From positions 1 through 20,135 of IMG/VR virus record IMGVR_UViG_3300010883_000696: a stretch of DNA of 20,135 bases. One strand, 5' to 3'. Source of the DNA: a virus. This document shows positions 245-18,311 of the stretch, one piece after another. The position numbers and the translations under genes were made by a program. Numbering within the stretch: position 1 is the first letter of the stretch; each line of letters opens with the position of its first letter. The notes below the pieces were generated by a model, which made no database searches, was not told the origin of the DNA, and worked only from the letters and a program-made list of their open reading frames with translations.

Positions 245-3200
245 TTATCCTAGTGCTAGGGCCATCGGTATTGAGTTGTCGGCGACCGCTTCCCATACCG
301 GGTTAGCGCCTGATCCCTTTGTGGTTAAAACATATCCAGAAGTTGATTGAGACAGGCGAGTCGGCGCGCCTGATACTCCATAAATTAAAACGTCGCCTTG
401 TGTGCCGTCTTCCAATTCAGTAAGCGTCACCGCGTTCACCGCAAGTTCAGATGACCCGACAGCCCCTGCCGCTATTTCACTCGCGGCAACACTATCGGCA
501 GCAAGGTGTGCGGCAGTGATCGCGCCTGTTCCGATTCGTGCTGCATCAAGTGTTCCACTTGCAATGTTATCAGCGTTGGTCGTGTCGGTTGTTGCGCTGG
601 TAGCCAAACCACTGATCTTCGACGTGGCTATTGCCGCACTGGCGTTGATGTCGGCATTGACGATGTCGAGGGCTGCTAATTTTGACTTTGCTATAGCCGC
701 TGATGCGTTCACATCGGCATTAACAATATCGAGCGAGGCGAGTTTAGTTTTTGCAATCGCCGCACCAGCATCCACATCCGCATCAACAATCGCAAGCGCG
801 GCTAGTTTAGATTTTGCTATTGCGGCACCAGCATCCACATCCGCATCAACAATCGCCAGTGCTGCTAGTTTCGTTTTTGCTATTGCGGCTGATGCGTTGA
901 TGTCCGCATTAACAATGTCGAGGGCTGCTAACTTAGTCTTAGCAATCGCCGCACTTGCATTGATGTCCGCATTAACAATTGTGCCATCGGTAATCTTCGT
1001 TGACGTGATCGATCCATCGGCGGGTGTTGCATCTGCCCACGTCGCTAACCCATCCGCGTCGGATTTAAGAAAGTACCCGTTAGTCGGGGAGGATGTGATC
1101 TTTATCTGACCATTAATTTCTAGCTTCGCATCAGGGTCGGCAACGCCTATACCAATGTTCTCAGCGGCAGTGATGGTCATCGCCAACGCATCTGCGTTGT
1201 CATCAATACCTGTTGATGCAAAGTTACTGGCGGAGTAGGTGTTGAAATTGATGTTGCCACCGAGTTCCGGTGTCGAATCATCAACAACTGCCGCGATTCC
1301 CGGCGCGATACCAACGAACGAGGAACCCGAGTAATACTTAAGTTGATTGCCCGTTGAATCGTACCAGAGGTCGCCAGCGGCAGGGCTTCCGGGCGCACTC
1401 GACGCAATCGTATATTCGTCGCTATACCGCTGAATCGAAGCCTCGTTGGTGGCAACCGTTGTTATGTCGCTAGATATTCCCGCGAGAGTGTTCATGTTGG
1501 TGACATTCCCGCTTGTGCCTAGCACGTTCATGTCATTCACAACATCTGCTGTTCCCAAGGTGTTGAGGTCGGCCACAACGTCTGCCGTTGCCAAGGTATT
1601 CATATCGACAACTACATCAGCCGTACCGAGGGTATTCATGTCGGCAACAACGTCCGCCGTTCCCAGCGTGTTCATATCGGCAACCGCATCAGCCGTGCCT
1701 AACAATCCAATTTCCGTTGCCTTACCCGCCACGGCAGTAATGTCGGCACTTATACCCGACAGGGTGTTCATATTTGTGACGTTGCCTGATGTGCCGAGAA
1801 CATTCATGTCGTTGACTACATCGGCTGTACCGAGCGTGTTCAGGTCGGCAACCACGTCTGCGGTTCCCAAAGTGTTTAGATCAATTACGACATCGGCTGT
1901 GCCTAAAATTGCCATATCGGCAACAGCGTCTACGGTGCCAAGTCTCCCTACTTCGGTAGCCTTCCCCGCTACGGCAGTAATGTCGGAACTGATTCCCGAC
2001 AGAGTGTTCATGTTCGTGACATTCCCACTGGTGCCAAGAACATTCATATCATTTACAACGTCTGCCGTTCCAAGTGTGTTCAAGTCGGTGACTACATCCG
2101 CTGTTCCGAGCGTATTCATGTCGGCAACTATGTCAGCCGTTGCCAGAACATTCATATCTGAAATCACATCGGCAACTGCCAGCGTGTTCATATCTGATAT
2201 GACATCAGCAATCGCCAATAGATTCATATCAGCAACGATGTCGGCGGTTCCGAGGAGCGCCATGTCTGCCACCGCATCAGCGGTTCCAAGGCGACCCACT
2301 TCCGTTGCCTTGCCCGATACAGCAGTTATGTCAGCACTTATTCCTGACAGCGTATTCATGTTGGTTACGTTACCGCTCGTTCCCAGCACATTCATGTCGT
2401 TAACTACATCCGCCGTTCCTAAAGTGTTTAGATCACTGACTACGTCCGCCGTTCCTAAAGTGTTCAAGTCGGTCACTACATCGGCGATTGCTAGGATGGC
2501 CATGTCCGCAATGACATCGGTTGTGGCAAGCAACGCCATATCAGCAACAACATCTGCCGTTCCGAGCAGATTCAAATCAGTCACCACGTCAGCAGTTCCG
2601 AGAGTGTTCATATCGGCAACGACATCGGCTGTGCCGAGAATCGCCATGTCTGCCACTGCGTCGGCAGTTCCCAGACGCCCTATCTCTGTTGCCTTCGCCG
2701 CGACCGCACCTATGTCAGTTGCATCTGCGGCCACGGAAGTTATGTCCGAACTGATACCCGCAAGAGTATTCATGTTCGTCACATTGCCGCTTGTACCCAG
2801 CGTATTCATGTCGGCAACAACGTCCGCTGTGCCGAGTACATTCATATCAGCAACGATGTCTGCCGTAGCCAAAATGTTCATGTCGCTCACAACGTCTGCT
2901 GTAGCGAGTGTGTTCGCATCCGCAACAAAATCGGCAGTCGCAATAAGATTCAAATCAGTTACAAAATCGGCAGAGGCAACGGTGTTTAGGTCTGAAACGA
3001 CATCCGCTGTTCCTAAAAGCGCCATGTCAGCAATCACATCCGCTGTTCCAAGGAGGCCTATTTCGGTAGCCTTACCAGCTACCGCCCCAATATCAGTTGC
3101 ATCTGCCGCGACTGCGGTGACATCACTTGAAATCGCATTCACCCCCGTCACGTCCGCACTGATCGAAGACACATTCGACACAGCCGCACTGATCCCGCTG

Positions 3201-4210
3201 AGAGTGTTGATGTGACCCTGATCTGTCGTGGTTGGTGTTGTTCTTAACCAAGTGGTCGTGGCTAAGTCATACACCATCTTGACGTTATTTGTCGTATTAA
3301 AATATTGCGCCCCGTCTACCAACGCATCACCGTCATTATCAAGCGTCGGGTCTGAGGATTTGGAGCCTAACTCCAGATCATTGAAATCATCATAAGCGGC
3401 GGCGGCACTGGCGCTTGATGCGGCTGATGCCGTTGCGCTCGAAGCCGAAGAGGTTGCCGAGGACGCAGAATTCGTTGCCTGAGTCGTTGCGATGACGGCT
3501 TGAGCCGTTGATATCGTGGCTTGGGCGGTAGAGGTCGCTTGGCTGGCCGCGCTTGCCGTCGCGCTGACAGCAGAAGCGGTAGCGCTGGCACTGCCCTTTG
3601 CGGCATGGTGCAAGGCCGAGTAACTGGTTCCATCAACAGTGTCATCTTCTGCGCTGATGGCCCACTCTTTAGAGGCGCCCGCTGCAGCGGTGTCGGTAAT
3701 GTTCGTTCCACCGACAGCCCAAGCCTTCGAGGAACTATCACTACCAGTAACATAGCCATCCGTTTTCTTGGCCCAGTTTCTGGCCTCCTCAACATCAACC
3801 ATCAACTCCCAGTTGGCCGCTGATAGGTCAGTAGCCCAAGTGCCAGAAGTGTGTGCGACGATGCAGATGTAGAGACTGTCTGTGCTTGCGCCAGACGAGC
3901 CATCAACGACAACATCGCGTAATGAAAATGCTGTTGCTGTCGCCCATGTCCCTTGCCATAGGCCAACACCTGTTTGAAGGTCTAAAGCGCCCCCGGAACC
4001 GAAGCCTATAATGCTCCCAGCGCGAGTGGCGGCGTTGGCCGTTATCTCAAAGTCTGTAGATTCATTGGGGAGTTTAATCGCCCTCTTAACATTGAGTTCG
4101 CCAGTGTCCCAAGCAGTGACCAAAGCGTCAAAATCCGACTTAACAACGTCGCCCCTTGCAAGAGTCCCCTGTGTGTAAGAGCCCTGTCTAGTGTAATAAT
4201 CGTTAGCCAT
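245..4210 (-). CDS. Repetitive tail fibre protein (1321 aa)
   Basis: This is probably the adhesin or fibre that contacts the host surface. The N-terminus (residues 1-200) carries motifs common in phage tail fibres: EEARNWAKKTDG at about 142-152, SSKAWAVGGTNITDT at about 160-174 and KEWAISAEDD at about 181-190. Residues 203-272 are almost only Ala, Ser and Thr. Residues 386-907 hold 36 copies of a 12-residue repeat in five super-units. A linker with APGSPAAGDLWYDSTGN and PELGGNINF motifs follows, then an IGIGVADPDAKLEINGQ motif. Residues 1077-1202 are six 21-residue repeats, and the C-terminus is Ala/Thr-rich, ending in MALALG. No intramolecular chaperone or enzymatic domain is evident. The ATG follows the hub gene's stop directly, with TAGG about 7 bases upstream. 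Fibre identity is solid. Which end attaches to the particle is inferred from the family, where the N-terminus normally anchors. Confidence 0.92.
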   Translation of the reverse strand: MANDYYTRQGSYTQGTLARGDVVKSDFDALVTAWDTGELNVKRAIKLPNESTDFEITANAATRAGSIIGFGSGGALDLQTGVGLWQGTWATATAFSLRDVVVDGSSGASTDSLYICIVAHTSGTWATDLSAANWELMVDVEEARNWAKKTDGYVTGSDSSSKAWAVGGTNITDTAAAGASKEWAISAEDDTVDGTSYSALHHAAKGSASATASAVSATASAASQATSTAQATISTAQAVIATTQATNSASSATSSASSATASAASSASAAAAYDDFNDLELGSKSSDPTLDNDGDALVDGAQYFNTTNNVKMVYDLATTTWLRTTPTTTDQGHINTLSGISAAVSNVSSISADVTGVNAISSDVTAVAADATDIGAVAGKATEIGLLGTADVIADMALLGTADVVSDLNTVASADFVTDLNLIATADFVADANTLATADVVSDMNILATADIVADMNVLGTADVVADMNTLGTSGNVTNMNTLAGISSDITSVAADATDIGAVAAKATEIGRLGTADAVADMAILGTADVVADMNTLGTADVVTDLNLLGTADVVADMALLATTDVIADMAILAIADVVTDLNTLGTADVVSDLNTLGTADVVNDMNVLGTSGNVTNMNTLSGISADITAVSGKATEVGRLGTADAVADMALLGTADIVADMNLLAIADVISDMNTLAVADVISDMNVLATADIVADMNTLGTADVVTDLNTLGTADVVNDMNVLGTSGNVTNMNTLSGISSDITAVAGKATEVGRLGTVDAVADMAILGTADVVIDLNTLGTADVVADLNTLGTADVVNDMNVLGTSGNVTNMNTLSGISADITAVAGKATEIGLLGTADAVADMNTLGTADVVADMNTLGTADVVVDMNTLATADVVADLNTLGTADVVNDMNVLGTSGNVTNMNTLAGISSDITTVATNEASIQRYSDEYTIASSAPGSPAAGDLWYDSTGNQLKYYSGSSFVGIAPGIAAVVDDSTPELGGNINFNTYSASNFASTGIDDNADALAMTITAAENIGIGVADPDAKLEINGQIKITSSPTNGYFLKSDADGLATWADATPADGSITSTKITDGTIVNADINASAAIAKTKLAALDIVNADINASAAIAKTKLAALAIVDADVDAGAAIAKSKLAALAIVDADVDAGAAIAKTKLASLDIVNADVNASAAIAKSKLAALDIVNADINASAAIATSKISGLATSATTDTTNADNIASGTLDAARIGTGAITAAHLAADSVAASEIAAGAVGSSELAVNAVTLTELEDGTQGDVLIYGVSGAPTRLSQSTSGYVLTTKGSGANPVWEAVADNSIPMALALG
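605..982 (-). repeat. Six tandem 63-base repeats (21 residues each) in the fibre C-terminal region
   Basis: Six in-frame copies run without gaps, encoding residues 1077-1202. The consensus is DIVNADINASAAIAKTKLAA plus Leu. The N-A-D and A-A-I-A-K-x-K-L positions are invariant or nearly so, while Asn/Asp alternate at positions 4 and 8. The last copy has drifted (ATSKISGL). Repeats of the NADINASAAIA type are frequent in phage fibres. Confidence 0.93.
1490..3055 (-). repeat. Array of 36 copies of a 36-base repeat (12 residues) in five super-units
   Basis: The consensus is x-L-G-T-A-D-V-V-x-D-M-N, with A for G, L for M and A for the final N as the common variants. Reading leftward, super-units of 8, 9, 8, 5 and 6 copies lie at 2768-3055, 2354-2677, 2006-2293, 1766-1945 and 1490-1705. 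Linkers of 30, 20, 20 and 20 residues of the type TLSGISADITAVAGKATEVG separate them. Each unit opens with a copy like RLGTADAVADMA (unit 1 has LLGTADVIADMA) and closes with LGTSGNVTNMN. Copies, linkers and total length agree exactly (522 residues). Third codon positions differ widely between copies that encode the same peptide. Confidence 0.95.
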
Positions 4211-6766
4211 TTAGCGCCTAATCCTCCGTGGCGAGTAATGCACCGTAACGCCCTGTAGCGTGTGTGGTTGCTCATATGTCGCTTCAGACAAAATCAATAA
4301 ACCCATGTTTGTTCCAACACCTTCAATATTGTGTTCCGCTGTAGACACAACAGCAGATGACCAATTAAACGTATCCCAGTTATCAATATTCCAGTAGCCA
4401 CCGTCAGCCGTCACCGACATATCCAACTCCCTCGCTTCTGGGACTTCTGGACTGTCGTATGAGTACGCGGGCATAAACTTCAGAGAAACATCAGAGCCTG
4501 CCGACATTTCGAAATGAATCTTTCTGAACCGTTTATTCCGTGTTGGCGTGTCGTAGTGGTAATACGAAAGCCGTAACATCGCTTCTATCTTGGCTCCATC
4601 AAAAGACGTTCCCTTGTCCATTTGATAGATGTACCCGTCATTTGAACCAAAGAATAAAATCTCATCCCCATCAGCGTCCTCTGAAGAGCAAACTGAATAC
4701 ACAACCTTCCCAAGGTCTGCCCTTATGAACCCAGCCAATTTGTTACCAGCAAATGTTCCAAAAACCGCAGTGCCGTCATTAAAAAACAAGCGGTACTGAC
4801 CCTTCGACCTAACCCGCACCGAAGAAATTGATTTTCCCTTTTTTGAGTCAATTACTGGTTTAATTTTTTTACTCAGTGATGAGATCGCAAAATCACCATA
4901 CGCATTAACCGCTGACAGGTTCGTTACTCCCCTATCATCTAAGTAAATAGTTTCTGCAAGATTCTGAACGGTGTACTCAACCGCACCAGAGTTATTGGAG
5001 AATGTTTTAAGGTTCCAATCTGCAATGCTGGTTCCATACAAGATGTAGGTGCGATTGCGATTAAAGATTGCCATCGAATCACCGCGCATTACCTGTAGCC
5101 CAGTTATTTCATCGCCCGTACCAAGTTCAGCGGCGCCCGTAATCACAGTCCATGAGTAAGGAAGGCCGATACCGGAATGCTGTAACGAACCTTTATGGAA
5201 GGCTAGAAACAAGTGCTTCTTGTGGGCGGTTATATGCCGTGGTGTATCGATAGACATCCCCGTGGATACTGGAACCCAATACGTCCCATCAAATTCAAAG
5301 GCGGGATTGAACCCATCACATCCATACATTCGATTACTGGATGTGCTTCCACCAAAGTTGTAATTGATAAACTCGTATCGGCCACCGGGAACAAGAGCGA
5401 CTGTTTGTCTAATCCCTTTAGACAAGGCGCGATGCGCCATGACCAAATCGCCTGCGGTATGACCTGCCGGAGTAGTGCTGTGGGCGCCACGCACACAACC
5501 AGTCAGACTGGTGCTTCCGGTTTTCCCCGTGTAAGTAATCTTTTCCGTTCCAATCGTTACTGTTCCTGTATCCGGAAAGTCCGATACATCGGTAACGGGG
5601 ATGGTAAAAACACTGGAATTAATAGTGGAGAGAACTGTCGTGCTGTATTTGTATAGCGTCTTGTTATCCGCAAAAGCATCGCTAATAACAACTGTTCCAG
5701 CAAATCCTGAGCCCGTTCCACCAAGTGTTATTGTGGGCGCTGACACATAACCACTTCCCGCAGTCTCAATCGTAATTACTGAGATGGCGCCTGCTGAAAT
5801 TGTTACGCTTCCAGTTGCAGTGACTCCGCTTGGCGGATCGCTAAAAGTAACGGGAGTCGTTTCGGGAGCAGTATATCCAGAGCCCCCATCTGTTATCGTT
5901 ACCGATGCAACCGTGTGACTTATATCAGACAGGACAAACAACCCTTCGGCGCTATCAATAGCGTAAGACCCAGCGCGTAATGCGATACGTCTTACCGTGG
6001 CTGTTGTGGTGGTGTCAGCCTGCTTTACCGTGTCTCCTTCGGAGAATTCCTCCGTCCCAAGATCAAAATCTATATAAGACCCCAGATCAACAGCGGCCCA
6101 TCCAGTAGTGCTTGCTTTATACATCTTGCACGCTGTTCCACCAGCGTTATCCCTAAAAGCATAGATATCCCCGTTATAGACCCACACCCCACGAATCGGG
6201 CCTGATCCCGTCACAACGCCAATTTTCGACCTCGCCCTTTCAATTGACGCTTGAGAGTAAGTCGAATCCAGCGCGTCGGTAGCGGCGCCAAGAGAATTTT
6301 CGATAGTTTTCACTACCGCGACAGTTGAAGCACTGACCTGGATATTTTCTCCTACTTGGAAAGTTCCTGTGAGCAAGGCAACAGCCATGTACCCAACCGC
6401 ATCACTTCCGGCATAAGAACCACTTTCCACTACCGTATTAACAATGAGTTCAGCAGTAGCGCCTGACGTTGCGCCAGTAATAACATTCGTATCTACCGCC
6501 GCCACCGTTCCAGTTTGGAATTCAATAATCCAGTAAATACTTTCCGAAGGCTTAACTCGTCCGTCGTACCGTTCAAAACCATCGACACGGCGATAACCGC
6601 CTTCCGGATACACCTCATAATTCTTCCCATACAAAAGGGAACCCGGCGAAGTTGAAAGGGCTGGATCAGTAAGCACCTCCCCACCCTCAAAAGCGAAATA
6701 CTTTGCTCTCAGAGAGGATGACGGAAACGAACTCCTAGATACTAAGTCGGCATAAATATTCGTCAT
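4211..6766 (-). CDS. Tail hub / head-closure protein with beta-rich inserts (851 aa)
   Basis: The N-terminus (about 25-72) has the pattern FEGGEVLTDPAL, YGKNYEVYPEGGYRR, VDGFERYDGR, which I associate with hub proteins of the P22 gp10 (packaged-DNA stabilisation) type in short-tailed phages. The C-terminal half has the expected propeller-like strands and closes with TLQGVTVHYSPRRIRR. In between lie apparent inserts. Residues 288-365 contain two GGSGY/AGSGY-x-(A)P-type repeats, and residues 390-442 form a module with GTVTIGTEKITYTGKTG and GCVRGAHSTTPAGHTAGD. Both occur as mobile decorations in virion proteins. The ATG overlaps the adaptor stop by 4 bases (ATGA), so translation is probably coupled. 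The family assignment is by remembered pattern. Virion role is very likely and exact hub function likely. Confidence 0.8.
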   Translation of the reverse strand: MTNIYADLVSRSSFPSSSLRAKYFAFEGGEVLTDPALSTSPGSLLYGKNYEVYPEGGYRRVDGFERYDGRVKPSESIYWIIEFQTGTVAAVDTNVITGATSGATAELIVNTVVESGSYAGSDAVGYMAVALLTGTFQVGENIQVSASTVAVVKTIENSLGAATDALDSTYSQASIERARSKIGVVTGSGPIRGVWVYNGDIYAFRDNAGGTACKMYKASTTGWAAVDLGSYIDFDLGTEEFSEGDTVKQADTTTTATVRRIALRAGSYAIDSAEGLFVLSDISHTVASVTITDGGSGYTAPETTPVTFSDPPSGVTATGSVTISAGAISVITIETAGSGYVSAPTITLGGTGSGFAGTVVISDAFADNKTLYKYSTTVLSTINSSVFTIPVTDVSDFPDTGTVTIGTEKITYTGKTGSTSLTGCVRGAHSTTPAGHTAGDLVMAHRALSKGIRQTVALVPGGRYEFINYNFGGSTSSNRMYGCDGFNPAFEFDGTYWVPVSTGMSIDTPRHITAHKKHLFLAFHKGSLQHSGIGLPYSWTVITGAAELGTGDEITGLQVMRGDSMAIFNRNRTYILYGTSIADWNLKTFSNNSGAVEYTVQNLAETIYLDDRGVTNLSAVNAYGDFAISSLSKKIKPVIDSKKGKSISSVRVRSKGQYRLFFNDGTAVFGTFAGNKLAGFIRADLGKVVYSVCSSEDADGDEILFFGSNDGYIYQMDKGTSFDGAKIEAMLRLSYYHYDTPTRNKRFRKIHFEMSAGSDVSLKFMPAYSYDSPEVPEARELDMSVTADGGYWNIDNWDTFNWSSAVVSTAEHNIEGVGTNMGLLILSEATYEQPHTLQGVTVHYSPRRIRR

Positions 6767-7449
6767 ATGACCTGGATGACCTCTTCAGTATCCACGCTAC
6801 TCAACCTACGCATTCTTTGATCAGGCAATGACCTGGCTTCTAGTTTGTCGAGTATGTCTTGATACTCAGCCGATGCCGCCAGCAGAATCTCTGGGGCTTC
6901 CTCTCTTTCTGCCCACATTGTTTTGGCCCTAGACACAATTATCCGGTGATACATCGTTGGGATTACTGACACGTCAGCGTTAGCCGCCATCCGTGTCGGA
7001 GATTGCCAATAATCAGCCGTAATCGTGTAAGCCTTGTCTGGTCGTGGATAAACGATAAGGGATTCATCCGGCTTAACCACAACATATGTCGGCGTTGCAT
7101 TGGTCTGCGTCCCTTGCCGTTGCGAAGACCTGAACTCAACATACTCAAGGGGACTAAGATTCGTCCAATCGTCGGACGTGTAATCCAAAAAGAAGGATCG
7201 CATATCCCACGTACCAAGATCAGTGGGCTTAGTTAACGCCGGGGCTTCAGTGCCTGTTGATAATGTCGAGGAGTACTGCGCCCAAAGGAAACTCCAATCC
7301 TTCCACAGCCCCTGTATCTGGTGATCAGACTCTGCGACAAAATCGATGATCGCTTTTAGCTGGCCTTCCTGAGTAACAACCGTACTGGGGCCAGTACCTG
7401 AGACACCGACTTCTTGCCTAACTGTTTGACAAAGTTCTAGGAACGTCAT
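6763..7449 (-). CDS. Head-tail adaptor protein (phage adaptor family, 228 aa)
   Basis: This is probably the ring protein that joins the portal to the tail hub. The N-terminus FLELCQTVRQEVGVSGTGPST is typical of phage adaptor proteins, followed by a helical segment (Q-L-K-A-I-I-D-F-V-A-E-S-D-H-Q-I-Q-x-L-W) and DWSFLWAQ. YVVVKPDESLIVYPRPD and YTITADYWQSPTRM match the beta section of that family, and the MYHRIIVSRAKTMWAEREEAPE helix follows. Length is normal. The start lies 32 bases inside the glycosyltransferase gene, and no strong ribosome site is visible, suggesting coupling. Position directly before the hub gene supports the role. Confidence 0.82.
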   Translation of the reverse strand: MTFLELCQTVRQEVGVSGTGPSTVVTQEGQLKAIIDFVAESDHQIQGLWKDWSFLWAQYSSTLSTGTEAPALTKPTDLGTWDMRSFFLDYTSDDWTNLSPLEYVEFRSSQRQGTQTNATPTYVVVKPDESLIVYPRPDKAYTITADYWQSPTRMAANADVSVIPTMYHRIIVSRAKTMWAEREEAPEILLAASAEYQDILDKLEARSLPDQRMRRLSSVDTEEVIQVI

Positions 7450-8494
7450 ATTTCAAATTTCTGTGGTATTCGATTGCCTTAACTACGGTGTTGGGATCGA
7501 TCTTTGCGGCGCACATGGCTCCGCCAGTTTCGTCATCTCTATTGCACGTCTTAAAACTGAAATGAATCTTGTGACATGGATAGCAGTCAACACCGTCAGG
7601 AACAATGGATGTTGTGTTAACCCAATACTTAGGAAGGTTCTCTCTCGACGAATGGCTCAACAAAACAACCTTGGCCACATCCTCCATGCTCACACTATTG
7701 AGAACTCCTGTTTCTGGGCCAACAACTAAATCAGCCCTTTGAGCGAATGCCAGGGTCTTGCGAATAGACCACTTGCCGCTCCTTGCAGATACTCTTTTTT
7801 CTTTTTCCCACCCAACTTCCAGTATCTGGCAAAACTCATCACCCACCATGACAAAACGGACTTCTGGCATAGCGATCAAAACTCTCGCCATCACTGCATC
7901 CATATGGGGGTAGGCTTTATGAACAGATGAACCAGAAAGCGTAACTACGATCACGTAATGATTTGAGCCGATAGACATTTTCCGCCGCTCGCGCTCAACC
8001 CACTTCTTCTCTGAAGTGCTTGGGAAGAAGGTGTTGTCGAATGAATATTCGACTCCAGCCCTGTCGTGCAAGGCCTCGCTATAGTTTTTATTTAATTTTT
8101 TGTGCCGCTTCTCTGTTGGCCACAAATACTCTTCTTCATTAGGCGTGCAGAGAAGGCCAACCTCAACTACCTGACCAAGATTGATGAACCCTTGGAATAG
8201 CGGGGCTATCCTGTCCCAATACTCGCCTAATTCAGCATTGGGAACCTGTTCGTCATATTGCGTGAGTAATTCATCGACATGCGGGTCATTCTTGAGAATC
8301 TGAGCGCCCCGTTCAGAGCAGTTAACACAGACTCTGAAGCCCTGCTTTTTGAGAATGGGGAAAATTGAACTGCATTGGAGCATGTCGCCATAACCACCAT
8401 AGCGAACAAGGCAAACCGTGTTCTCTCTTATCCCGCCAAGTTGCTCATCTGTCGAATCCTGCCATCTGCCGCTGGGTAATTTAACTACCCTCAA
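7418..8494 (-). CDS. Glycosyltransferase, GT-B fold, family 9 (heptosyltransferase)-like, 358 aa
   Basis: It would transfer a sugar from a nucleotide donor. The N-terminal half has VCLVRYGGYGDMLQCSS at about 27-43, the G-D-x-L-x turn of GT9/GT-B enzymes, and a second Rossmann-like start at about 180-206 (VIVVTLSGSSVHKAYPHMDA). The C-terminal donor-site motif ADLVVGPETGVLNSVSM lies at about 254-270, followed by VVLLSHSSRENLPKYW. CYPCH (304-308), C317 and C328 form a cysteine group of unknown role. The usual glycine-rich start is intact and length suits a full enzyme. The start is TTG in a TTGA overlap with the upstream gene. It sits inside the virion cassette rather than among metabolic genes. 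Acceptor unknown: virion protein, or the host's surface polysaccharide. Confidence 0.8.
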   Translation of the reverse strand: MRVVKLPSGRWQDSTDEQLGGIRENTVCLVRYGGYGDMLQCSSIFPILKKQGFRVCVNCSERGAQILKNDPHVDELLTQYDEQVPNAELGEYWDRIAPLFQGFINLGQVVEVGLLCTPNEEEYLWPTEKRHKKLNKNYSEALHDRAGVEYSFDNTFFPSTSEKKWVERERRKMSIGSNHYVIVVTLSGSSVHKAYPHMDAVMARVLIAMPEVRFVMVGDEFCQILEVGWEKEKRVSARSGKWSIRKTLAFAQRADLVVGPETGVLNSVSMEDVAKVVLLSHSSRENLPKYWVNTTSIVPDGVDCYPCHKIHFSFKTCNRDDETGGAMCAAKIDPNTVVKAIEYHRNLKYDVPRTLSNS

Positions 8495-9309
8495 ACAGGA
8501 TCAACCACATCAACCAAACTGATCTCAGCGGTATCAACTACGCAGGTATTCGTCTCGTCGTCCCACTTAAATCCCTTTTTGGTCGCGCACATATTTTTCT
8601 CATACAAATAGTCGGGATCACTTACATCAGACTGCGCGTCCTTCTCTTTAAGGCCAACCTCCTGCATCAACGAATCTAGGTCTGTCTCCATATCAATGGG
8701 GTTATGCTGAAGCCCCGCCGCAGACAGCGCCCCACTCAACGCCATTCCTAGAGTCCCAACGACTCCGCCCACCATTCCCATAACCATACCCGCAGGGGTT
8801 TGCGTAGCGGACATAGCACCACTCAGAAGGCCACCTTTCTTGCCATCCTTGTTTGCCGCGTTCACCTCTGCACTGTGGGATTTAGACAGACTGTCAATCG
8901 TTTTGCCATGCTCATCAATAAAGGACTGAACCATGTTCTGCTTTTCTTGCTGAGTGTGGCGGTCTTTCGAATAACTGATACCAAACGTTGTCGCCGGATT
9001 TGTAGACCTGACATTCTCCGTAAGTGACCGCAACTGACTTCTTATGGCATGTGCATCGTGTTGGTGACGAGCGGGTAATGCATTCTGCCTCGTAGTAAAG
9101 TCCTTCTGCATATCTTTGAGGTCAGTATCATCATAGGGAGAGTAATCAACCTCATCGGTCAGATTCATATCAACATCATGACCCTCGTCTGCTTCTTGAC
9201 CCGGACCTGCCGGTGCCGCATGAGCAGCATTTTGTCCACCGGGCGGACCCTGCTCTCCGTGTTCATCTGCTGGATCAGCTTCTGGTGCGCTTGGATCGCC
9301 GTATGCCAT
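8491..9309 (-). CDS. Putative virion or internal protein with Gly-rich hydrophobic patch (272 aa), unknown function
   Basis: I do not recognise a family. Residues 1-60 are Pro/Ala/Asp/Glu-rich and probably disordered. Residues 60-155 are helical and charged (KDMQKDFTTRQN, AIRSQLRSLTENV, QEKQNMVQSFIDEHGKTIDS). Residues 158-200 form a Gly/Ala/Met-rich hydrophobic stretch (GMVMGMVGGVVGTLGMALSG), and the C-terminus has a two-cysteine motif C-x4-G-x-K-W-D-x3-N-x-C. No signal peptide is present. Such a membrane-active patch in a protein encoded between capsid and adaptor genes would suit an ejected internal protein, but that is inference from position and composition. The ATG at 9309 follows the previous stop by 2 bases with no clear ribosome site. 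Confidence 0.72.
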   Translation of the reverse strand: MAYGDPSAPEADPADEHGEQGPPGGQNAAHAAPAGPGQEADEGHDVDMNLTDEVDYSPYDDTDLKDMQKDFTTRQNALPARHQHDAHAIRSQLRSLTENVRSTNPATTFGISYSKDRHTQQEKQNMVQSFIDEHGKTIDSLSKSHSAEVNAANKDGKKGGLLSGAMSATQTPAGMVMGMVGGVVGTLGMALSGALSAAGLQHNPIDMETDLDSLMQEVGLKEKDAQSDVSDPDYLYEKNMCATKKGFKWDDETNTCVVDTAEISLVDVVDPV

Positions 9310-9776: not shown

Positions 9777-10754
9777 TTAAACCGCGCTGTCCCACAAGAC
9801 ACAACGTGCTTGTGCGGCGGTTGTATGAACGAGGCCAGCACCGCCCAAATAATACCAGGCGATCCCCCGCGATCTTCCGAAGTCGGTCGGAATTTTCCCT
9901 CGAACCTCTTCGGGAATAGCGACAGCCTCTGCGACAGTGTCAGAACCCAAGAAGACAGCCCAATCGGACTTAGCATTTGACCACGCAGCAGCCGCAGTAC
10001 CCATGCCAGCCGCCGCACCGCCTTTGGCGCGGTAAGTCTGCTCAACAAAACGGACACCTTCATAACGCCCTGTCTCACCATTTCGAATCATCTGAAAGCC
10101 TGTCTCGACGTACTGCGAGATGGATTCCAAATTATTCTTCATGGTGCGGAACGTAGTGGGCCAACCAATGCAGAAATAATCGTCCCCGCTATAAGCAGGA
10201 ATGTTTCTCTCTTTCATTGTGTCAACGACGGCTTTGATGTGATCTTTGCCTAGCGCGACATTGTTGGTTGCCGTTGCGGTTCCATTGGTGGTCAGCACAA
10301 CCGTATCGGTTGCCGTACCGGCAGTAGGTACAACCCGTAGAGGCGTAGCATCAATCTGGTCAGCAACCAGATCGTCTAGCACTTGGGCCGCATCTATCTT
10401 TAGGACCTTATGTATGATCTCCTTAACAGGTTGCTCAGACAAATCGTCCAGTTTTGACGAAAACGGAATACTATTTCCGTACTCGCCGATGGTCATGGTT
10501 CCCTGCGAGATGGTGAAATTTGTTTCGGCAATCGCCGTACCTTCAGTCAACGCCGCACCAGCAGTAGCAACAGTTGAGTACACATTCCAATGGAACGTGT
10601 CGCCCTTACTGAGCCCTTGATGCGCCGCATCCTTTACGTCGGCAAACTGACGAAACTTCACTATCGGACGCAGAGAAACACGTAACTCTTTACTTAAATT
10701 TAGGGAGTACATATAGCCACCGAGGCTACTGGTTCCCCATACTTGTCCAGCCAT
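9777..10754 (-). CDS. Major capsid protein, N4-gp56 family (325 aa)
   Basis: This is the main shell protein of the head. Features typical of the N4-gp56 capsid family: an N-terminal arm with RPIVKFRQFADVK; the segment ALTEGTAIAETNFTISQG at about 70-87; GEYGNSIPFSSKLDDLSEQP; a spine-like helix with KVLKIDAAQVLDDLVADQ; and a C-terminal half with GDDYFCIGWP, NGETGRYEGVRFVEQ and GRSRGIAWYYLGG. Length fits the family. The ATG has AAGGA nine bases upstream, the best-looking ribosome site in the block, as expected for the most abundant product. It follows the scaffold gene by 38 bases. Confidence 0.93.
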   Translation of the reverse strand: MAGQVWGTSSLGGYMYSLNLSKELRVSLRPIVKFRQFADVKDAAHQGLSKGDTFHWNVYSTVATAGAALTEGTAIAETNFTISQGTMTIGEYGNSIPFSSKLDDLSEQPVKEIIHKVLKIDAAQVLDDLVADQIDATPLRVVPTAGTATDTVVLTTNGTATATNNVALGKDHIKAVVDTMKERNIPAYSGDDYFCIGWPTTFRTMKNNLESISQYVETGFQMIRNGETGRYEGVRFVEQTYRAKGGAAAGMGTAAAAWSNAKSDWAVFLGSDTVAEAVAIPEEVRGKIPTDFGRSRGIAWYYLGGAGLVHTTAAQARCVLWDSAV

Positions 10755-12217: not shown

Positions 12218-14461
12218 TCAACCTTCCGCCCCTTGAACACTGCCGTATTGATCATTCATCAAAACCTCACTCATCTTTTTACCTTCCGGGTCAATTCCGA
12301 TATCGGGCTGATCCATCATCATCTTGTGAACCAGTGCCTCTTTCTGAAGTAGCAGTTCACCTCTTGCGATATCGTTCTTTTCTGCCTTGATGCGTGAATC
12401 AATCATTCTTATCTGTTGATTCATTGAGTCACGACGCTCTGCGGAATCGGTCTGCATCTGAGTGGATCGCATCTCACCCATCGCCTTCTCTTTGGCGGCG
12501 GTAACATCAGCCTGCCCCTTGATCTGTGCGGCAAGAATGCGACCTTGAACATCCATTTCCTTAGACGATCCCTGTTGCATCAGGTGTTCAACGGCGGCAG
12601 TAATCTCGTCCAACTGCCCAGCCATTTGATCGATACGGGCCTGATCCTGTGGTGCGAGGAATCGTTTGGAATCCTTGTAACCTAATGCACCAAATACTTC
12701 CTTGCTGATCTCCTCCAGATTTAATGAGTTAACGATGTCCGGATTGATTTCCCCCATCGTTCTGATGCCCATAAGCAATCTTTCAATCTTCTTGACAGGG
12801 TCAGTCGCGCCAATACCAACATTTACACCGACCGTCATTTCATGGCGTAGTAATTCATCGGCTTCATCACCAGTAAACTTCTGAAATGAGCCCGCCTCAG
12901 CATTTGCATCCTGTTCAGCGCGACTCGTTGCAATATTCATCACCACTTCATCGGTTTCGTAGTACTGCTCCAGACGAACCAACTGCATCAGTACACGCTC
13001 TATCCACGTTTCAGCGAATGTCCTGACCATGTACTCCATTTGGGAGTTAGCCTGCCCGGACAACATCTCCATGCCGCCAACGGTTTCGTTCATCAGGCGA
13101 TTGGTTTGCACTGTCCCCTGAGAGAAATTACCGGCAAGGTCATCAAAATCTACGTTGAGTCGATCCTGTTCCTCGTACGCACTCGCTGTAATATCTGGCG
13201 TATTCACGACCTGAACATCTGTCATCGGATCATCCATCATCACAGAACCACCCGGCACACTTCTCTTGAGTGCATGGATGTCGATGTTGGAACTTCTGCG
13301 AATGTGGTAACGCTTGTTCAGCACCAACTGGACGTTATCTGTCCTCTGGTTGGCAATGTCATTCGCCGCTGTCTGTAAGTCCTGCGTCAACTCAATCAGT
13401 GACGATGGGTAACACTTATGGGCCTCAATCGTTGTTGAGCCCATCACATAAGGACGCTCGCCATTCCTGAGATGCGGGTAAACCTCTTGTAACGGTTTGG
13501 GCGATGTCAGCATATGCTCAGTGCCAGCCGTGTAAAAAAGCCAATCTTTCCCGCTCTTGCGGATGATGTTCTTATGAATGAATACAGTGGTGTATTCAGA
13601 AATATCGTTAACTCGACCTGCAAGCGGGTCTTGCCTGTTCCCCTGCCTCGTCTGTCGCGTGGAGTCAAACTCACTCTTTCGGGATGACTCAAGCAACTCA
13701 CCAGTCGTTAAACTCTTCCACTTCGGCTCACCCGTCTTCTGATCAATATCATCCATCTTCTCCAAGACATCTGCGATGTACATGGGGATCACTTCGATAA
13801 CGAAGGGGGATGTCCCAACAGGGTCACTCCAATCTGCCGCCGGATCGATTCGAAAGTTCTCAGAAGCAATCAGCCTGATGTATGGGCAATCCTTGACTAC
13901 CTTCGTTTCTTCCCGCGACTCCTCCGCTTCTGTCCCATCCTCATTAAGGACGACGTTTCCAGCGTCATCAAACAACGGCTCCTTAATGCGAACCTTTTCT
14001 TCTTTGTACTCCCAATACTGGTGCGAAACCACGCTACCAAAAACAAGTGCCTCTTGGTATGCGGCAACCAAGGTTTGAAACCACGGGATGGTTTTTGTTA
14101 GACGATACTGAAGCAGGTGCTTGAGTATGGTCGCAGAAGCCCTTTGATTCTCGTCTGAATCGTTCTCCGGATAGACTGATACAACATCCTCTGTCGCAAA
14201 AAACGCAGAAGCAATCGCGGCTTCATTGGTTCGTATCGCCGATCTTGTCTTAGGCCGGAAAAGGCGTGATCGATGTGCATAAGTCTGGGTATGGTACTTA
14301 GAACCTGACGGATGCTCTGATTGAAACAGTGAGATATTTCTCTCCCACTGTCTCCTGTAGTTGGCATCCAAATACGACGTTGACGATGTGTACGCATCCT
14401 TCGCCAATCGAAGCCAAGGAGATCGTTCCGTTTCCTTATTAAGGGGGGCTTCCTCATTCAT
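12218..14461 (-). CDS. Portal protein (747 aa)
   Basis: It would form the dodecameric ring at one capsid vertex through which DNA enters and leaves. The N-terminus has a long helix followed by W-E-R-N-I-S-L-F-x-S-E-H and SRLFRPKTRSAIRTNEAAIA at about 67-86, typical of portals from short-tailed phages. The core carries a GSVVSHQYWEY stretch, an IRLIASENFRIDPAADWSDP segment, NERPYVMGST-like strands (NGERPYVMGSTTIEAHKCYP) and ANDIANQRTDNVQLVLNKRY. NRLMNETVGGMEMLSGQANS precedes the stem helices. The last 150 residues are a Glu/Lys/Gln coiled coil (about 610-715), as in barrel-bearing portals. Its ATG overlaps the upstream gene by 8 bases. Size and neighbours (terminase before, scaffold and capsid after) agree. 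Confidence 0.92.
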   Translation of the reverse strand: MNEEAPLNKETERSPWLRLAKDAYTSSTSYLDANYRRQWERNISLFQSEHPSGSKYHTQTYAHRSRLFRPKTRSAIRTNEAAIASAFFATEDVVSVYPENDSDENQRASATILKHLLQYRLTKTIPWFQTLVAAYQEALVFGSVVSHQYWEYKEEKVRIKEPLFDDAGNVVLNEDGTEAEESREETKVVKDCPYIRLIASENFRIDPAADWSDPVGTSPFVIEVIPMYIADVLEKMDDIDQKTGEPKWKSLTTGELLESSRKSEFDSTRQTRQGNRQDPLAGRVNDISEYTTVFIHKNIIRKSGKDWLFYTAGTEHMLTSPKPLQEVYPHLRNGERPYVMGSTTIEAHKCYPSSLIELTQDLQTAANDIANQRTDNVQLVLNKRYHIRRSSNIDIHALKRSVPGGSVMMDDPMTDVQVVNTPDITASAYEEQDRLNVDFDDLAGNFSQGTVQTNRLMNETVGGMEMLSGQANSQMEYMVRTFAETWIERVLMQLVRLEQYYETDEVVMNIATSRAEQDANAEAGSFQKFTGDEADELLRHEMTVGVNVGIGATDPVKKIERLLMGIRTMGEINPDIVNSLNLEEISKEVFGALGYKDSKRFLAPQDQARIDQMAGQLDEITAAVEHLMQQGSSKEMDVQGRILAAQIKGQADVTAAKEKAMGEMRSTQMQTDSAERRDSMNQQIRMIDSRIKAEKNDIARGELLLQKEALVHKMMMDQPDIGIDPEGKKMSEVLMNDQYGSVQGAEG

Positions 14462-15255: not shown

Positions 15256-16893
15256 TCAATACGAAGGCAAAGCATCTGGCTCAAGATCGTCGCTACCCAA
15301 CAACTGCGGCGGAGCGGCTTTGATGTCATAAATTCTGGACATTGCGTCCAACATATCGACGTGCACTGCGGGGAAGAGGTTGTATTCGTTATCAATCATT
15401 CGTTGAGTAACGTCATACAGCCTGCCAGTTTCGTCTTTCTGCTTCAGCGGCCTCACAATGAGTGCCGCATCGCCAACCTCAAACGCCTTACGCTGGAGCG
15501 ATGTTAGTTGGTCTGAAGAAGGGGCCAAGAAGAAGCGCCAGTTCTCAAAGTCGGGCTGTAATCTCTGTACGCGATCCCGTTTAGAACCTGGCCCTTCTCT
15601 TGGCCACGCTAGTTCCTCGATGGGGAAATGACCATTCTCTATACGCATCATTTCCTTAAAGTGTTCAATGTCAGAATCCTTGCCGTATCTTTCATACCCA
15701 ACCTTCACCACCAGGATTCCCGGTTGCCGCAACCACCTGTTGCGAATCTTCTTTACGGCTTCCCAACGCTCTTTCAAGTTCATTCGATGGCAAAGGCCAT
15801 CCAGCAGATACTTGTTAAAGGCGCTGTCAATGCCAATAACGGCTATAGCCGTTCTATCCGAAGATTGCTTCTTTGAGTGCGCCGGGTCACAGAGGATGTA
15901 GATATTCAGAACGCGAGGTCTGATTTCTGCGCGACGAATCCATTCTGGATCGAAAACCTGCTCTGAACCCGCAATCGGGTTCTGTAACATTTGACAGGCC
16001 AGTACATACTGCCCCATCGAGGATTTTTTCTTATCCCATTCAGCTTCTGATAAGAGAATGGGCTTTCCATCGGGGGAACCTGAATCAGTGGCGGGATAAA
16101 CTCTCGTTTGTGTTCCCCGCTCAATCAATTCACGGTAGGTATCCGCATAGTGATACCGCGTCCCGATATACCACTCCCTGTTCTGACCACCAGATAAGTT
16201 TTGCGACAGGTCTAGTGCTTCTGTCGTCTTGGCGATCTGATCAGGTGTGTTGACGGAGTCTCTTGTGACAACGTCATCATAAATTCTTAAGTCATAGTGG
16301 CGGGAAATAGGTTGCCCATCCACCAGCCCCCATGCTTCTACTGTTGCTTCCTTGGGGTTCGACTTACGTTTGACAATAATTCCCGAATCTTCACTCCACT
16401 GCGGGGAGTCCTGCCGTGGGTTCTGGTAGCAGATGTCCGGAAATAATTCGCGCAAAAATTCGTTGATCTCAAATTCACGCTTGATCTGCTTCAAGAAACC
16501 TTTAGCGATAGGCCGGGTGTGGGAAAAAATACCTATCGTGGTATTGGGGTTCCTTAAGATTTCCTGAATCGTTCCAGCATAGGTAATGATGGTCGATTTG
16601 TAATGACCCCTAGCCCACAGGTCTAGGACGCCATCAGGAGTAGCCTCAACCTCACGACACCGATCATAAAGCCACGGATGAACCGCATCCTTGCGCCCCA
16701 AAATAATGCACAGCAAAAACCACCGGTCGGCTTTCGCCAGTTCTCTCAGAAGTTCCGGGTCATTTTGCTTTTGAAGAAGGTTCTTATAAAAAGTTCCGGC
16801 TTGGGCAAGCGTAGCCGTGGGTAAATAATTTTTCGCTCGGTCAATAAACTGATCACGATTCAGCTTCGCTTTTATGACGACTTCCTTTTCCAT
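15256..16893 (-). CDS. terL: Terminase large subunit (545 aa)
   Basis: ATP-driven DNA packaging motor and nuclease. The Walker A-type motif is WARGHYKST at about 93-101, followed by the helix TIITYAGTIQEIL. The Walker B-type segment is DLRIYDDVVTRD at 201-212, and coupling motif candidates follow. The C-terminal RNase H-like nuclease begins at YILCDPAHSKKQSSDRTAI (D336 and D346), continues at VKVGYERYGKDSDIE, and ends with HVDMLDAMSRIYD (D513, D516), giving the expected acidic cluster. Length is standard. The ATG lies inside the preceding 64-aa gene (22-base overlap) with only a weak ribosome site. The portal gene lies three small genes away. No intein or truncation is seen. Confidence 0.93.
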   Translation of the reverse strand: MEKEVVIKAKLNRDQFIDRAKNYLPTATLAQAGTFYKNLLQKQNDPELLRELAKADRWFLLCIILGRKDAVHPWLYDRCREVEATPDGVLDLWARGHYKSTIITYAGTIQEILRNPNTTIGIFSHTRPIAKGFLKQIKREFEINEFLRELFPDICYQNPRQDSPQWSEDSGIIVKRKSNPKEATVEAWGLVDGQPISRHYDLRIYDDVVTRDSVNTPDQIAKTTEALDLSQNLSGGQNREWYIGTRYHYADTYRELIERGTQTRVYPATDSGSPDGKPILLSEAEWDKKKSSMGQYVLACQMLQNPIAGSEQVFDPEWIRRAEIRPRVLNIYILCDPAHSKKQSSDRTAIAVIGIDSAFNKYLLDGLCHRMNLKERWEAVKKIRNRWLRQPGILVVKVGYERYGKDSDIEHFKEMMRIENGHFPIEELAWPREGPGSKRDRVQRLQPDFENWRFFLAPSSDQLTSLQRKAFEVGDAALIVRPLKQKDETGRLYDVTQRMIDNEYNLFPAVHVDMLDAMSRIYDIKAAPPQLLGSDDLEPDALPSY

Positions 16894-17812: not shown

Positions 17813-18036
17813 CTCGGCACCCTCGGATTCTGTACCTTGCCTATGGTTTCCTGTCTGGCCTGATTGATTTGCTTAATGGCATTTTCCGTAGAGTCTTCCA
17901 TCTCGTTACCCTTTTTAATCACTCTCAAGAGTTTTTGAGTCAGCGGATCAAACTCCCCTTCCGGTCTTGGTTCTTCTACCGGATCTTTTGCGGTGTACCC
18001 AACAGTTCTGCCTTTAGGCGCTACATTGATTGCCAT
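17809..18036 (-). CDS. Hypothetical small charged protein (75 aa)
   Basis: It starts MAINVAPKGRTVGYTAKDPV, has the acidic Pro-rich stretch EEPRPEGEFDPLTQ, then an amphipathic helix (KLLRVIKKGNEMEDSTENAI, KQINQARQETIG). No cysteine, no membrane segment. It shares a single base with the preceding gene (TAATG) and four with the next (ATGA). Unknown family. The helical C-terminal half could mediate oligomerisation. Confidence 0.72.
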   Translation of the reverse strand: MAINVAPKGRTVGYTAKDPVEEPRPEGEFDPLTQKLLRVIKKGNEMEDSTENAIKQINQARQETIGKVQNPRVPR

Positions 18037-18311
18037 TACTTTATTGACCTATTTTTTGATCTGGACATCACCCGCAAATTTCCTGTGCTGTTATCTTTGG
18101 GGTTTCGATTGGCGTGGTGAATATCTTTCCCATCGCCTTTACTGACCCGTCCTGTTTTGGTTAATTTTCGGCGGGCCTTATTTCTGGAACTTCTCTCAGC
18201 AACCGCTTTGGGGGAGGAATGAAATTTTTTGTATTCATTTTTGTAATTTCGGGATTTACCCCCACCCGTTTTGTATTCAGAAGCCGTTCTGGCGCGAATT
18301 AAACCAGCCAT
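18036..18311 (-). CDS. Small basic HNH-like protein (91 aa)
   Basis: The protein is very basic (Lys/Arg-rich). Its centre, SSRNKARRKLTKTGRVSKGD, leads into GKDIHHANRNPKDNSTGNLR (61-80) and VMSRSKNRSIK. This is the layout of a small phage HNH-type protein: the D-I-H-H pair (63-66), N69/N74 and the N-L-R of the third element at 78-80. The final histidine expected in a complete HNH site is replaced by Asn/Arg (SKNR), so nuclease activity is uncertain. HNH proteins are often encoded next to terminase and can assist packaging cleavage. The start shares one base with the stop of the 44-aa gene (TGATG), with AAGAG about 12 bases upstream. Confidence 0.8.
   Translation of the reverse strand: MAGLIRARTASEYKTGGGKSRNYKNEYKKFHSSPKAVAERSSRNKARRKLTKTGRVSKGDGKDIHHANRNPKDNSTGNLRVMSRSKNRSIK

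Follow-up and report, generated by a model that had tools for sequence, protein, structure and literature searches.

A glycosyltransferase (GT) gene lying between the capsid and adaptor genes of an IMG/VR virus was found to be inherited vertically, co-diverging with the portal gene, and its product is almost certainly a member of the GT9 family with a GT-B fold. The analysis was centred on the window, a 20,135-base IMG/VR virus record that represents a fragment. The best explanation, to which we give about an even chance, is that the gene, passed on vertically and expressed late, encodes a phage heptosyltransferase whose donor is probably ADP-heptose and whose acceptor is more likely a virion protein than LPS; the computed basis of this explanation is the fold, motif conservation, fixed gene order, and vertical inheritance.

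The late cassette of the window is of SU10 type, with genes in the order terminase, portal, scaffold-like, capsid, 272-aa gene, GT, adaptor, 851-aa neck/closure-like, and repeat-rich fibre. The genes and overlaps used below are as follows.

15256..16893 (-), terminase large subunit gene (phrog_38, E 5.3e-51)
12218..14461 (-), SU10-type portal gene (Pfam SU10_portal, E 3.7e-39)
9777..10754 (-), major capsid protein (MCP) gene (phrog_1357, E 1.9e-23)
8491..9309 (-), 272-aa fast-evolving gene between capsid and GT (no family above cut-off; weak homologues, all of them in the marine clade)
8491..8494 (-), TTGA stop/start overlap of 4 bases, the GT TTG lying over the TGA of the 272-aa ORF
7418..8494 (-), gene for a 358-aa glycosyltransferase of GT9 type, starting with TTG (from the ORF together with relatives, hhalign, fold search, and motif conservation)
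7418..7449 (-), out-of-frame overlap of 32 bases between the GT end and the adaptor start (adaptor ATG at 7449)
6763..7449 (-), SU10-type head-tail adaptor gene (Pfam SU10_adaptor, E 3.7e-17)

The preliminary description had placed an enzyme at 7418-8494, coupled to the 272-aa gene through TTGA and to the adaptor through a 32-base overlap; the ORF is real, its coordinates and frames were confirmed, and the adaptor was identified as SU10_adaptor. The TTG start is consistent with relatives, which share the same first residue via ATG, GTG or TTG. Across 86 methyltransferase-less loci with a detected adaptor, the GT/adaptor overlap is 32 bases in 44 and 4 bases in 32, and is therefore not a matter of chance. 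Elsewhere in the window, a 1321-aa fibre-like protein (245-4210, minus strand) carries LED repeats (Pfam E 2.2e-19) and numerous LGTADVVxDMNTLG-type repeats, and an HNH_3 endonuclease-like gene (18036-18311, minus strand) lies upstream of the terminase. In another locus, a peptidase M15-like gene (L061:8224-9027) occupies the capsid-GT slot, at the position of the 272-aa gene in the window.

Searches with the window GT protein as a single query gave no match in Pfam, PHROGs, NCBIfam, PDB, or INPHARED, and the Pfam GT9 model gave none against it at E ≤ 1. Relatives were collected from IMG/VR and GTDB genomes; among 50,697 annotated phage records, no relatives of the family were found. Three distant relatives pass Pfam GT9 (PF01075; 29.2 bits for L087, 32.6 for L095, and 27.6 for L096, cut-off 22), and hhalign of a 25-sequence family alignment against E. 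coli WaaF/WaaC/WaaQ/WaaU gave 97% (E 1.2e-10). An AF2 model from close relatives only (pLDDT 74) was superseded by one from the deeper, 25-sequence alignment (pLDDT 93), for which the nearest solved structures in Foldseek are GT9 enzymes (3tov, 3.8e-14; WaaF 1psw, 4.9e-13; WaaC, ~1e-8; TibC, 4e-8). Relatives, profile-profile comparison, and fold search together indicate a divergent heptosyltransferase-family protein. The earlier call of a GT9-like, GT-B enzyme is thus upheld by Pfam GT9 in relatives, by hhalign to the Waa enzymes, and by AF2/Foldseek, with the profile search being negative for the window sequence alone and positive when relatives (Pfam GT9) and profile-profile comparison were used.

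Motif conservation was counted over ~145 distinct family members, with denominators giving the members that cover each site.

8384..8386 (-), codon for the aspartate of GxGD (D37), aligned with D13 of E. coli WaaF (145/145 relatives)
7916..7918 (-), codon of K193, within SVHKAYP, aligned with the invariant Lys of Waa enzymes (144/144 relatives)
7706..7714 (-), E261-T262-G263, within GPETGxLN, corresponding to D[ST]G at the donor site (143/143 relatives)
7511..7585 (-), four-cysteine motif C304-x2-C307-x9-C317-x10-C328, which may bind a metal (unvarying in every member that spans it)

The GxGD aspartate (D37 here) serves as the catalytic base in GT9 enzymes. Further residues of the motifs are likewise 100% conserved. 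Since this aspartate, the donor-site lysine, ETG, and the four cysteines are invariant, the enzyme is, as judged from sequence, very probably active. Compared with WaaF/WaaC/WaaQ (PF01075), it shares the GT-B fold and the aligned GxGD aspartate, donor-site lysine, and acidic-[ST]-G motif, but identity is ~13%, GPETGxLN and LLSHSS stand in place of the Waa DSGxxH and YGPS, and the window family lies within a phage head cassette and is often methyltransferase-fused. RfaF-like proteins of uncultured Caudovirales (BFVD A0A6J7WHE7) are likewise GT9 folds in phages, at 13% identity. Many chromosomal GT9 enzymes have, as the window GT does, a CxxC...C...C arrangement near the C-terminus; similar four-Cys motifs occur in WaaF-type and LPS-type chromosomal enzymes, including those of hosts, and the motif was therefore rejected as a mark of protein heptosyltransferases. 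Being GT9-wide, it is no proof of protein glycosylation and does not decide the acceptor.

The position of the gene is constant, as the preliminary description had suggested be checked: the order MCP < GT < adaptor was found in 122/122 loci having all three genes (all loci combined), and among the first 96 loci every marine contig long enough to include both neighbours has the GT after the capsid and before the adaptor. To avoid selecting on the GT, capsid-first (MCP) scans blind to it were run, giving 139 loci. The GT family is present in 85 of these, as 75 N-terminal methyltransferase fusions, 3 pairs of separate methyltransferase and GT genes, and 7 GTs alone; 25/139 have no GT within at least 4 kb, and the remainder are too short or partial. 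Lysogens with a methyltransferase-GT9 gene include the environmental isolates Aromatoleum anaerobium LuFRes1 and Pseudothauera rhizosphaerae CC-YHH848. An adaptor search in ten fused loci with sufficient room gave no match. In 32 GT-less relatives the adaptor lies 0.5-1.8 kb past the MCP. The GT-less relatives, which include the cultivated Vibrio phage 219E41.1, keep the same head cassette, so the GT is not needed for head assembly.

Distance correlations were 0.85 for GT-portal, 0.75 for GT-MCP, and 0.83 for MCP-portal, and Mantel permutations for GT-MCP gave at most 0.08. On the MCP tree, which came from a quick search and whose root is not known, the 45 GT-alone loci, window included, make up one side of a branch (SH-aLRT 90) beside fused members, such that one change suffices for all 45; GT-less loci fall mostly on deep branches, with few nested. 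A methyltransferase-GT9 fusion appears to be ancestral, and the tree fits the methyltransferase having been lost once, in the window's marine clade; a separate Methyltransf_11 gene was sought in 18 marine contigs and none was found. In three loci (L092, L095, L096) the methyltransferase half is unrecognised by Pfam while the GT half is kept, suggesting divergence or decay. Two others (L139:3915-4568, L214:4515-5168) have an ORF between methyltransferase and GT that has a GIY-YIG-like start, gives no Pfam match, and is absent from the near-identical L213; this inserted ORF is possibly a homing endonuclease.

Genes for heptose donor synthesis were found in three GT-positive records. A 64.5-kb podovirus-like contig (G024), in which methyltransferase and GT are separate, carries GmhA-, HldA-, GmhB-, and HldC-like genes for all four steps; they lie around the terminase genes (L272:4805-9456), forming an apparently complete pathway, with the HldA-like kinase and GmhA-like isomerase immediately before TerL and the isomerase overlapping TerL by 4 bases. 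The HldC-like adenylyltransferase scores above the TIGR02199 cut-off, and the kinase, GmhB, and GmhA scores are under the NCBI equivalog cut-offs. GmhA and an adenylyltransferase are present in G036, and a kinase in G006, which belongs to the window's own clade. No heptose genes were seen in most GT-positive contigs, window included, many of which are fragments, and neither kinase nor GmhA was found in 12 GT-negative relatives; within the clade this amounts to 3 records versus none, which is not significant at such small counts. GmhA, in 2/31 GT-positive records versus 11/50,697 annotated phage records, is far commoner here, the two collections being different in kind. Heptose metabolism in phages was itself already known, since cyanophages and Caulobacter phage Cr30 likewise have heptose genes.

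The three heptose-carrying phages (G024, G036, G006) show no gene of the epimerase family, and a phage-made product would therefore be ADP-D,D-heptose, unless the host epimerises it; ADP-D,D-heptose is the donor seen bound to TibC (PMC4358343). ADP-heptose is the probable donor. The ADP-heptose genes of the three relatives support this, yet they suit a virion or a host-surface acceptor alike.

Further sugar-related genes accompany the GT. FkbM methyltransferases occur in 3 GT-positive contigs versus 0/12 GT-negative contigs (L120:5151-5927; L123:15473-16225, minus strand; G010:C1:1237-1704), and some loci have a TylF-type methyltransferase gene in the MCP-GT interval. On the contig of L078, a GT-positive marine phage, 2OG-Fe(II) oxygenase-like and sulfotransferase-like genes lie upstream of the portal (L122:191-1502). 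The FkbM, TylF, sulfotransferase, and GT2 genes hint at synthesis of a decorated glycan by several of the phages.

A virion protein as acceptor has, in our estimate, an even or marginally better chance. It is argued for by the late head-gene position, inheritance with head genes, and known examples of both cytoplasmic heptosylation and virion glycosylation. TibC is an established case of an enzyme with this fold that heptosylates protein in the cytoplasm (PMC4358343). TibC/Aah resemble the window GT in the GT9-like fold (Foldseek) and four-Cys layout (TibC C339, C342, C358, C370), and a cytoplasmic protein acceptor would match the role proposed here; the Cys spacing, however, is shorter in the window GT, and the partner differs, the neighbours being capsid, 272-aa, and adaptor genes, with no autotransporter. 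The N-terminal beta-barrel of TibC (residues 1-97, PMC4358343) is missing from the window GT, where GxGD is at residues 34-37 and DSSP assigns a single short strand (2-5) before the N-lobe. PMC11256854 cites reports of capsid glycosylation in mycobacteriophages Che8 and Rita and describes phage-encoded glycosyltransferases proposed to modify virion proteins; as described there, these are actinobacterial siphoviruses with glycosyltransferase genes near the genome 3' end (Maravista), unlike the present arrangement. Searches of the open-access literature found no match for this GT cassette.

Individual acceptor candidates were examined as well. The 272-aa neighbour was ruled out as a general acceptor, as its homologues were found in the marine clade only. 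A small LDRSRPFGE-type protein encoded near the adaptor, present clade-wide and matching no known family (L012:11046-11348, L088:9191-9406, L097:13855-14298), and a 120-130-aa protein after the MCP were both rejected as GT partners, being present without the GT too. Among the neighbouring proteins examined, none co-occurs only with the GT, and scanning the MCP for Ser/Thr/Asn sites that track GT presence gave one weak position only.

The principal alternative is a late-acting enzyme that alters the LPS core or another surface glycan of the host and so keeps superinfecting phage or released progeny from binding to infected cells or debris; we regard this as a serious possibility that falls short of even. 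A host-surface acceptor, which has an appreciable though minor share of the probability, is argued for because the closest enzymes by function act there, the nearest solved enzymes including heptosyltransferases WaaF and WaaC, and because relatives also occur in prophage-like loci; phage heptose genes would fit equally well. In one prophage (L087) the GT is adjoined by a GT2 gene that weakly matches a GtrB-like PHROG. That adjacency is confined to L087, however: no GT2 genes were found in 37 phage contigs, and no GtrB/GT2 or flippase match was obtained among ten window proteins scanned, with no flippase or membrane partner noted in the late operon. The transferase accordingly differs from Gtr-type O-antigen conversion cassettes, in which flippase GtrA and GtrB lie alongside. 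Nor does the gene move as a moron; it is inherited with head genes and kept across phages of varied hosts.

A role of the fold as structural element or chaperone in the neck or capsid, with sugar transfer lost, would suit the invariant place beside the adaptor and the overlapping reading frames, yet is very unlikely given the fully conserved catalytic and donor-site motifs, the methyltransferase fusion, the donor-synthesis genes of some phages, and the same cassette in GT-less relatives. Phages also use glycosyltransferases on modified bases, and glycosylation of phage DNA against restriction would be another role for the enzyme; base-modifying phage glycosyltransferases are not known to belong to GT9, and the gene sits among head genes, which makes this role extremely improbable.

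Under the preferred explanation, a vertically inherited virion-directed heptosyltransferase, the gene would encode an active GT9 enzyme descended from a methyltransferase-GT9 fusion and would belong to the near-core late genes of a large podovirus/prophage clade of SU10 type. The enzyme would be made late with capsid and adaptor, via the overlapping genes, and would draw ADP-heptose usually from the host and, in some relatives, from phage enzymes. Sugar transfer would take place in the cytoplasm, with a structural protein of the phage as the most likely acceptor, either ahead of head assembly or in its course; the methyltransferase fused to the GT in most relatives would cap the sugar product, and the glycan may shield or tune the virion surface. 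Tentatively, this widespread podovirus clade may have its own virion-heptosylation system: a GT9 fused to a sugar methyltransferase, its gene lying where the head and neck genes meet, would attach (methyl)heptose to a head protein, and ADP-D,D-heptose would in some members come from a four-step pathway of the phage itself.

The usual view of phage glycosyltransferase genes is that they are mobile accessories which alter the host surface, whereas here one is inherited with capsid and portal. It has an invariant active site, a fixed slot, and frequent methyltransferase fusion, in a large clade of mostly uncultivated podoviruses. With ADP-heptose synthesis in some members, phage heptose glycosylation would be directly testable in cultivated lysogens.
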